DNA of 64,000 nt, from contig NC_010321.1 in the NCBI RefSeq assembly GCF_000019085.1, positions 1,375,001-1,439,000 of the forward strand, in the 5' to 3' direction. Each line of letters starts with the position of its first letter. Position 1 is the stretch's first letter. Shown piece after piece: positions 6,795 to 17,915 of the stretch. The notes below the pieces were generated by a model, which was not told the origin of the DNA, did no database searches, and saw only the letters and a list, made by a program, of their open reading frames with translations. The DNA is from Thermoanaerobacter pseudethanolicus ATCC 33223. Lineage in GTDB: Bacteria; Bacillota; Thermoanaerobacteria; Thermoanaerobacterales; Thermoanaerobacteraceae. The position numbers and the translations under genes were made by a program.

Positions 6795-7709
6795 TTAATT
6801 TCTCCTTTCACAAAGTATTTTTAAAAGTGCCATCCTGACAGCGACACCGTTTGTCACCTGTTCTTCTATAACAGAATACTTGTCATTTGCTGCTTCTGAC
6901 GTAAGTTCAACATTTCTGTTTATAGGCCCTGGATGCATCAATATCGCATCAGGTTTTGCAAGTTTCATTCTTTCCTTATTTATCCCAAAATACTCTCTAT
7001 ATTCATCAATTGAGGGAAAAAGACCGCTTTTTTGTCTTTCCAGCTGTATTCTAAGCCCCATCACCACATCTGCTCCTTCTATTGCTTCCTCTACATTGTA
7101 GTAAGCCTTGACTCCTAATTTTTCTATTGCAGGTGGCATCAAGGTGGAAGGGCCTGCAACTCTCACTTCCGCCCCCATCTTTTTAAGTCCCCATATATTT
7201 GACCGTGCAACTCTGCTGTGCATAATATCTCCTATTATTGCCACTTTTAATCCTTCAAAGCTTTCTTTCTTTTCTCTGATTGTCATCATGTCCAACAAGG
7301 CTTGGGTGGGATGTTCATTTATACCATCTCCTGCGTTTATGATAGAGGCATTTGTGTATTTTGCCATAAGATGCGGCGCTCCACTCATGTTGTGTCTTGT
7401 TATTATCACATCCGCCTTCATCATCTCAACAGTCCTTATGGTATCTATTAAAGACTCCCCTTTAGCCACACTGCTGGTTGCCACTTCTATATTGCCGTAA
7501 TGGGCTCCTAAATACTTTGCTGCCATCTCAAAAGATAGTCTTGTCCTCGTGCTAGGTTCGAAAAAAATCGTCACAACTGTCTTTCCCTTTAGTATCTGTG
7601 AATATTTTTCTCCATTTAGAATTTTTTTCATCTCCTTTGCAGTGTCTAAAACTTCTAGTATTTCTTCTTTCGATAAATCCTTAATGCCTAACAGGTCTTT
7701 TCTCTTCAC
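6795..7709 (-). CDS. pyrB: Aspartate carbamoyltransferase catalytic chain
   Basis: First committed step of UMP synthesis. It carries the carbamoyl-phosphate loop [13 protein letters not shown] near residue 50, HPTQALLD near 132 and the C-terminal [10 protein letters not shown]. The 304-residue length is normal. Translation starts at GTG behind AGGAGGAAGG, a site that lies inside the last codons of the 38-codon leader ORF; only one base separates the leader stop from the GTG. No PyrI regulatory chain is visible, as in Bacillus. Confidence 0.95.
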
Positions 7710-7710
7710 A

Positions 7711-7827
7711 TTACCTTCCTCCTTTTAAAAAAAGAGTAGTAACCACATCACAATAGTGTGAAATGGTACTACTCTTTTTGTATAAAATATTCTCTTTTGT
7801 TAAAATTAGGGTTCTGAATTTTGGCAT
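7711..7827 (-). CDS. Putative pyr leader peptide (38 codons) spanning a terminator
   Basis: An ATG at 7827 sits 6 bases after GGGAGGAT, which is also the 3' arm of the PyrR-controlled terminator. It opens a 38-codon frame ending TAA at 7711, one base before the pyrB GTG. The frame reads straight through the terminator hairpin at 7727-7779 and ends over the pyrB ribosome site. No homology is recognised. The arrangement resembles the E. coli pyrBI leader, where a closely following ribosome prevents hairpin formation. Chance ORF occurrence remains possible. Confidence 0.5.
   Translation of the reverse strand: MPKFRTLILTKENILYKKSSTISHYCDVVTTLFLKGGR
7727..7779 (-). terminator. Intrinsic terminator inside pyr leader ORF
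   Basis: A 13-bp perfect stem AAAAAGAGTAGTA / TACTACTCTTTTT (with further pairing inside) is followed on the minus strand by a T7 run, directly before the pyrB ribosome site. It lies downstream of, and separate from, the PyrR attenuator. Confidence 0.8.
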
Positions 7828-7913
7828 AAAAAATCCTCCCTTTTTAGAGTTTAATACTCCGGGAGAATATCTATCATTCTCCCTTTTTAGCCTCGCTGGG
7901 CTAAATTAAAGGT
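7828..7913 (-). promoter_or_regulatory. PyrR attenuator between pyrR and pyrB
   Basis: In minus-strand order: a PyrR binding loop (stem TTTAGCC/GGCTAAA around CAGCGA, 7913-7884); GGGAGAAT with ATTCTCCC (7883-7861) as antiterminator; and the same ATTCTCCC with GGGAGGAT (7840-7833) plus T6 as terminator. The last two are mutually exclusive, as in the known Bacillus pyr mechanism: UMP-bound PyrR stabilises the loop and causes termination. Confidence 0.85.
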
Positions 7914-7914
7914 G

Positions 7915-8546
<632 letters not shown>

Positions 8547-8561
8547 ACTTTGCTTTTTTAT

Positions 8562-8590
8562 ATATTATCACATTCTTTTTAAATTGTCCA
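8562..8590 (-). promoter_or_regulatory. Promoter of the pyr operon
   Basis: TGGACA (8590-8585), 17-base spacer, TAATAT (8567-8562). Transcription would start just ahead of the PyrR loop, as an attenuated leader requires. Confidence 0.65.
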
Positions 8591-17475: not shown

Positions 17476-17551
17476 TGGTGGAGCTGATGGGACTTGAACC
17501 CACGACTTCCACAATGCCATTGTGGCGCTCTCCCAACTGAGCTACAGCCCC
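17476..17551 (-). tRNA. tRNA-Ala (anticodon GGC)
   Basis: A 76-nt cloverleaf with encoded CCA. The acceptor stem GGGGCTG/CAGCTCC has the alanine-specific G3-U70 pair. The anticodon stem CCACA/TGTGG closes the loop ATGGCAT, anticodon GGC. The T arm contains GGTTCAAGTCC. It lies 11 bp after tmRNA. Confidence 0.95.
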
Positions 17552-17562
17552 ATATTTATTTT

Positions 17563-17915
17563 TGGTGGAGGTGCGGGGAGTCGAACCCCGGTCCGAAGGC
17601 GTCACAGTAAAAGCTTCTCCGAGCGCAGTCGCTGTTTTAATTTTCCCTCAGCGGTTCTCCCAGCGACAGGATAACCGCCTCGGTAGCTTCATAAGTTCCG
17701 GTTTTGCCCCGAAGCCTGAGCAAAACCAGTTCCCCACTCTTTTGACGCCCAATCCTGAAACGTGGGCATTTCAGGTTGGACGGCTACCTTAAATTAGGCA
17801 GCGTAAGCTAATTCTCTGTCTGCGTTTATTTTTACTCCACCGTTTTTACGAGCTGGCGGACAACTCGGCTCGCTACTTTTACCTCGACTGCCCCCGTCGA
17901 AACCAGTACACCCCC
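17563..17915 (-). ncRNA. ssrA: Transfer-messenger RNA
   Basis: A 353-nt tmRNA. The 5' GGGGGTG pairs with the 3' CACCTCC followed by ACCA, keeping the alanine-type G3-U70 pair, and the T arm GGTTCGACTCC is intact. The internal tag frame ends NADRELAYAA then TAA; the exact resume codon is uncertain. It rescues stalled ribosomes with SmpB, whose gene ends 3 bp upstream. Confidence 0.95.

Follow-up and report, generated by a model that had tools for sequence, protein, structure and literature searches.

Is the pyrB leader of Thermoanaerobacter pseudethanolicus ATCC 33223 read by two sensors, or is it closed twice by one RNA-binding protein? The window analyzed here, a stretch of 64,000 nucleotides from contig NC_010321.1, carries pyrR and pyrB on its minus strand, and the interval between them (window 7914-7710, ca. 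204-205 nt) constitutes the leader. The genes and upstream signals are as follows.

pyrR, 8466-7915, minus strand: UMP-responsive RNA-binding attenuation protein / uracil phosphoribosyltransferase (NCBIfam NF003549, 257 bits over cut-off)
pyrB, 7709-6795, minus strand: aspartate carbamoyltransferase, GTG start at 7709 (NCBIfam NF002032, 410.8 bits)
First PyrR attenuator, 8465-8550, minus strand: ordinary layout, upstream of pyrR (RF00515, 45.1 bits, under the gathering score)
Candidate promoter, 8562-8590, minus strand: TGGACA-17-TAATAT with TG before the -10 (consensus scan only)

PyrR structures, including 1ufr, 1non and 1a3c, are the best PDB relatives of the pyrR product. Downstream of pyrB, the minus strand encodes pyrC, pyrF and a dihydroorotate dehydrogenase electron-transfer gene. 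Both the adjacent pyrR and the second PyrR site before pyrB recall the B. subtilis pyr operon. A consensus scan found no minus-strand promoter within the pyrB leader; thus, pyrB depends on read-through of the two terminators described below, T1 and T2. Compared with dinucleotide shuffles, the fold of the leader is 6.9 sd better. We rejected a repeat or mobile hairpin, as the leader is single-copy in its own genome (2,362,816 bases), the sole other match being the palindrome itself. Elsewhere in the window, a tmRNA (17479-17915, minus strand; RF00023, 204.7 bits) adjoins a tRNA gene.

The leader elements are arranged in the following order.

PyrR-binding loop (predicted anti-antiterminator) before pyrB, 7912-7882, minus strand: RF00515, 43.7 bits; present in 19/19 family leaders
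Antiterminator hairpin GGGAGAAU..AUUCUCCC, 7883-7861, minus strand: fold of -12.3 kcal/mol; its GG is common to the PyrR loop
Terminator T1, 7868-7833, minus strand: fold of -13.6 kcal/mol, with a U6 tract at 7833-7828
Leader ORF of 38 codons, MPKFRTLILTKENILYKKSSTISHYCDVVTTLFLKGGR*, ATG at 7827 to TAA at 7713-7711, minus strand: start and open frame in 19/19 family genomes
Second intrinsic terminator T2, 7779-7729, minus strand, inside the ORF: fold of -25.8 kcal/mol, with a U7 tract at 7733-7727; supported by covariation
pyrB Shine-Dalgarno GGAGG, 7722-7718, minus strand, inside the leader ORF: identified from sequence

A preliminary description of this DNA had placed a complete set of PyrR loop, antiterminator and terminator before pyrB, and we found every element in its place. 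The arrangement follows B. subtilis PyrR antitermination in that the loop shares bases with the antiterminator and the antiterminator with the terminator: AUUCUCCC is common to the antiterminator and T1, which are mutually exclusive, and forcing the PyrR loop switches the folding model to T1. The RF00515 match at the pyrB leader (7826-7916; 43.7 bits, E 1.9e-4) falls under the 54-bit Rfam gathering score. RF00515 matches were found in all 37 genomes of the class, and they exceed the cut-off in only three. Only 2 bases separate the pyrR stop codon from the PyrR loop downstream of it (7912-7917), and the two are comparably near each other in the family leaders that were read; a ribosome terminating there could therefore cover the loop.

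The 3' arm of T1, GGGAGGA, carries the Shine-Dalgarno of the leader ORF (GGAGG, 7839-7835), which is followed by six T and the ATG at a spacing of 7 bases. The ORF runs through T2, and its stop stands 1 base before the pyrB GTG. These observations confirm the earlier claim that a terminator arm doubles as the ribosome site of a 38-codon ORF spanning a second terminator. When the PyrR loop was forced in the folding model, the probability that this Shine-Dalgarno is unpaired fell from 0.29 to 0.00 at 37 °C and from 0.26 to 0.03 at 65 °C in the window leader, and from 0.60 to 0.02-0.07 at 65 °C in Thermoanaerobacterium. All own-family leaders tested gave 0.00-0.07 with the loop forced, the exception being genome G010 (0.26 at 37 °C but 0.05 at 65 °C). 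Within the model, then, PyrR binding should build T1 and silence the ORF in the same step.

We compared the pyrB leaders of 19 genomes from the GTDB family of the organism (f1), which span three genera and include T. wiegelii, C. subterraneus and Thermoanaerobacterium butyriciformans. All 19 share one layout: PyrR loop, Shine-Dalgarno in the T1 arm, ORF and T2. An ATG or GTG start directly follows the T1 U-tract in every one of them (in one genome it follows TTTTCC), 46-57 nt separate the AUG from T2, and in 19/19 the leader ORF terminates inside the T2 5' arm or downstream of it. Between the start and T2, frame 0 contains no stop in any of the 19 leaders, whereas frame +1 contains 1-3 stops in 19/19 and frame +2 contains 1-5 in 15/19. 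In shuffled sequences, an open frame arises by chance with a probability of ~0.1 per sequence, or ~10^-7.6 across 8 representatives, which are not fully independent. Thus, the start, the frame and the ribosome site were all kept along with the hairpins; failure of any of the three beside conserved hairpins had been proposed as grounds for abandoning the idea. The frame in which the ORF enters the T2 stem differs among lineages (...LRAEPF* versus ...KSRAIF) and is still open. A twentieth family genome, G006 (same genus, 90% complete), is outside the 19 counted: its search returned no close pyrB, only a match to a carbamoyltransferase paralogue, which may reflect assembly gaps or loss of the pathway.

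The peptide itself shows a different pattern. The preliminary description had expected synonymous bias in the ORF, and this was absent: pN/pS was 0.99 and 1.78, which suggests that the act of translation is kept rather than the peptide. Attenuation by an amino-acid leader peptide was likewise rejected, as none of 23 leader peptides contains a codon run for a regulated amino acid. The compensatory stem changes that had also been predicted were found in T2. Across 15 distinct sequences, 95.8% of the alignment cells are paired and six pairs show double changes; the covariation is 0.348, compared with 0.169 after shuffling, with 27 versus 9.8 double-change cells. The covarying columns are 10-57 (C-G/U-A), 21-45 (U-A/C-G) and 23-43 (C-G/A-U). 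An RNA-only antiterminator for T2 was considered and rejected, the pairing of the T2 5' arm with the upstream leader being no higher than the shuffled level in f1. With no competing RNA partner upstream of T2 in this family, the ribosome is left as the natural agent of relief.

Simplified versions of the leader occur in two sister families, each represented by two genomes. Family f2 retains the PyrR loop and T2; the Shine-Dalgarno lies in a hairpin whose U-tract is poor, and the ORFs, 9 and 13 codons long, stop inside T2. Family f3 lacks the antiterminator and T1 and retains the ORF and T2: AAGG of the loop runs into the Shine-Dalgarno AAGGAGG, followed by ATG and a 6-codon ORF with its stop at the T2 edge. 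Forcing the loop changed the modeled unpaired probability of the Shine-Dalgarno only slightly in f2 (from 0.36 to 0.20 and from 0.26 to 0.22). In f3, forcing the lower loop stem raised it from 0.23 to 0.76, leaving the Shine-Dalgarno exposed, so occlusion there would need bound PyrR itself, with steric blocking assumed. T1 thus varies in quality while the ORF and T2 are constant: it is strong in Thermoanaerobacter, weak in Thermoanaerobacterium and in g2 (the TTTTCC leader), at -7 to -10 kcal/mol beside T2 folds of -18 to -22, and absent in f3.

A search of 398 genomes of the phylum for overlap of a PyrR loop with a Shine-Dalgarno gave matches in 27, which include direct overlaps at pyrB and leader ORFs before carA (f70) and pyrC (f55), gene names that for f70 and f55 rest on a reading of N-terminal residues rather than on a family search. 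In f70, a distant Firmicute family in which the site stands mostly before carA, 13 of 20 genomes combine the overlap with an ORF and have no antiterminator; the short ORF stops inside or beyond the terminator at the 15 loci examined, and the next gene is carA-like wherever it was called and read. The pyrC leaders of f55 are built similarly, the loop overlapping the Shine-Dalgarno of a short ORF that stops inside or beyond the terminator, again with no antiterminator. A U-tract followed by ATG was also tried as a signature; it occurs in 35 of 398 phylum genomes, and the inspected loci were mostly chance matches or the start regions of pyrR or uraA, so it is not diagnostic alone.

Could the ORF simply be incidental, with T2 acting as another, somewhat leaky terminator that fixes the level of pyrB expression or serves as a back-up to T1? 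Its unconstrained peptide agrees with this reading, as do the terminators that commonly overlap coding ends in this genome and the organism's own uraA leader (PyrR site 2336384-2336484), in which T1 is followed by another hairpin, with a T-rich tail, that a 14-codon ORF crosses. We had considered that leader as a second case and rejected it, for the ATG is ACG in two relatives (G008 and G007). It serves instead as an internal negative control, and since its second hairpin lacks a conserved ORF, tandem hairpins need not involve translation. At pyrB, however, start, Shine-Dalgarno and open frame are all kept throughout the family with the other frames mostly closed; moreover, the ORF and T2 persist in f2 and f3 despite a weak or missing T1 and recur at carA in an unrelated family. 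We therefore regard an incidental ORF as unlikely.

Other uraA leaders take different forms. In f3, the loop overlaps the Shine-Dalgarno of uraA itself. In G383, uraA itself starts at the ATG that follows the U-tract and uses the Shine-Dalgarno in the T1 3' arm, and in Thermoanaerobacterium an ATG that likewise follows the U-tract lies in the uraA reading frame; judged from sequence, the latter two suggest direct dual control of the gene.

The preliminary description had gone further and proposed dual control by two signals. Its structural half, a PyrR switch joined to a translated second terminator, is borne out in the 19 family genomes and, in simplified form, in the two sister families; its sensory half is not. 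Under that proposal, PyrR would read UMP at T1, and UTP-dependent polymerase pausing would set the distance between ribosome and polymerase at T2, as at E. coli pyrBI. The geometry is indeed like that of E. coli, where pyrL extends across the attenuator and stops 3 nt short of pyrB, and some Thermoanaerobacterium leaders contain U runs of 4-6. The stretch from AUG to T2, however, is A-rich in f1 and has no U-rich pause tract (U 0.29-0.43, A 0.41-0.49; U 0.29 and A 0.47 in the window leader). A equals or exceeds U there in 21 of 23 leaders, whereas the corresponding E. coli stretch, from the pyrL AUG to the attenuator, has twice as much U as A (0.34 versus 0.16). No U run longer than 2 was found between AUG and T2 in f2 or f3, yet the ORF and T2 are kept. 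UTP-sensitive pausing of the pyrBI type is not supported by these sequences, and we consider such dual sensing distinctly improbable.

Still less plausible is a leader ORF that acts mainly to boost pyrB translation through reinitiation or coupling. Reinitiation has been suggested in general terms for leader genes (PMC4833913), and the distance from the leader stop to the pyrB start is ~1 nt in most Thermoanaerobacter. That spacing is not maintained, however, being ~50-65 nt in most Thermoanaerobacterium and g2, 129 nt in G017, an overlap in Caldanaerobacter and 59-82 nt in f2/f3. A functional small protein, for which only the good Shine-Dalgarno and start codon speak, is barely credible given a product with no protein family match, pN/pS near 1, and lengths of 6-48 codons in unrelated sequences.

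If a ribosome is to hold T2 open, it must do so in a genome whose terminators sit close to stop codons. The terminator stem starts no more than 10 nt from the stop codon in 38 of 54 genes of this genome, compared with 8 of 30 in E. coli (p 2e-4), with medians of 4 and 21 nt, respectively; by the same measure, f3 gave 12/16, f2 10/20 and Thermoanaerobacterium 11/21. In E. coli, terminators close to a stop codon are repressed by the ribosomes there (PMC4824070), which is why a short stop-to-terminator distance has been used in the literature as a proxy for runaway transcription (PMC7858274). The position of terminators at stop codons suggests that ordinary trailing ribosomes do not disable them here, and relief of T2 by a ribosome probably needs local pausing of the polymerase. 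In B. subtilis, leader ORFs nevertheless operate at terminators when the polymerase is paused (PMC6851288, PMC9226507): at tlrB, a ribosome nearing the leader stop blocks the terminator, and NusG-dependent pausing gives the time needed for loading (PMC6851288). By analogy, a pause at or just after the T1 U-tract could serve the relief of T2.

Several known systems share parts of this design. Classical PyrR sites are not known to have a leader ORF with the terminator arm as its ribosome site, or a second, translated terminator. Closer is a PyrR-gated leader peptide model without an antiterminator, which Van de Casteele and colleagues are reported to have put forward in 1997 for the pyr cluster of Thermus strain ZO5; in that model, PyrR reportedly decides whether the leader ORF is translated, and the ribosome keeps the terminator open. 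The f3 and f70 leaders, with direct overlap of PyrR loop and Shine-Dalgarno, an ORF and a terminator, resemble the Thermus model. The window leader would share with it the occlusion of the Shine-Dalgarno, but through the T1 arm, as the folding model predicts, and it differs in that an antiterminator is present and T1 is competent, with the Shine-Dalgarno in its arm, so that two terminators stand in series. E. coli pyrBI also has a leader ORF that spans an intrinsic terminator and stops a few bases short of pyrB; unlike the leader studied here, it operates without PyrR and uses U-rich, UTP-sensitive pausing. At B. subtilis tlrB, vmlR and bmrCD, too, a leader ORF lies near a terminator and ribosome position decides termination (PMC6851288, PMC9226507), but these leaders respond to antibiotic-stalled ribosomes, whereas gating in the window would be exerted by PyrR at initiation. 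Our literature search returned no account of a PyrR leader of this kind, nor any description of the spread of the simpler PyrR-gated ORF form in Firmicutes, and the tandem two-terminator form appears to be new.

On balance, we think it probable that the pyrB leader works as a switch with two locks and that PyrR alone operates both, T1 directly and T2 via translation of the ORF. Because the T1 arm is the ribosome site of the ORF, gating of ORF translation by PyrR is more economical than two independent sensors. When uridine nucleotides are plentiful, PyrR would bind the loop, as in other members of its family; the antiterminator would be lost, T1 would form and most polymerases would stop. The same event would bury the ORF ribosome site in the T1 3' arm, consistent with the folding results, and transcripts that escape T1 would then carry a ribosome-free ORF, allowing T2 to fold and stop the polymerase. 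When nucleotides are scarce, the antiterminator would form, leaving T1 open and the ribosome site free, and a ribosome translating into T2 would prevent its folding so that polymerase reaches pyrB. The sequence of the leader peptide would be irrelevant to this switch. The conserved core across the order would be PyrR-gated ORF translation together with T2, to which a competent T1 would add a lock of the Bacillus type.

More tentatively, and at somewhat less than even confidence, we propose that a terminator gated by PyrR and held open by the ribosome is a widespread, unrecognised mode of control in Firmicutes, used at pyrB in Thermoanaerobacterales and at carA and pyrC elsewhere. In Thermoanaerobacter, this mode would come after a PyrR terminator of the classical type, a single protein would close both locks, and transcription and translation would be coupled locally in genomes that appear uncoupled in other respects. 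The leader would then offer a direct test of whether translation can still control a terminator in bacteria whose polymerase runs ahead of the ribosome, and of whether pausing at the T1 U-tract buys time for the ribosome. If the proposal is true, a single RNA-binding protein would act on transcription in two ways, directly at T1 and via translation of the leader at T2, related leaders would show forms with and without T1, and the switch would be tighter or steeper than either lock alone.
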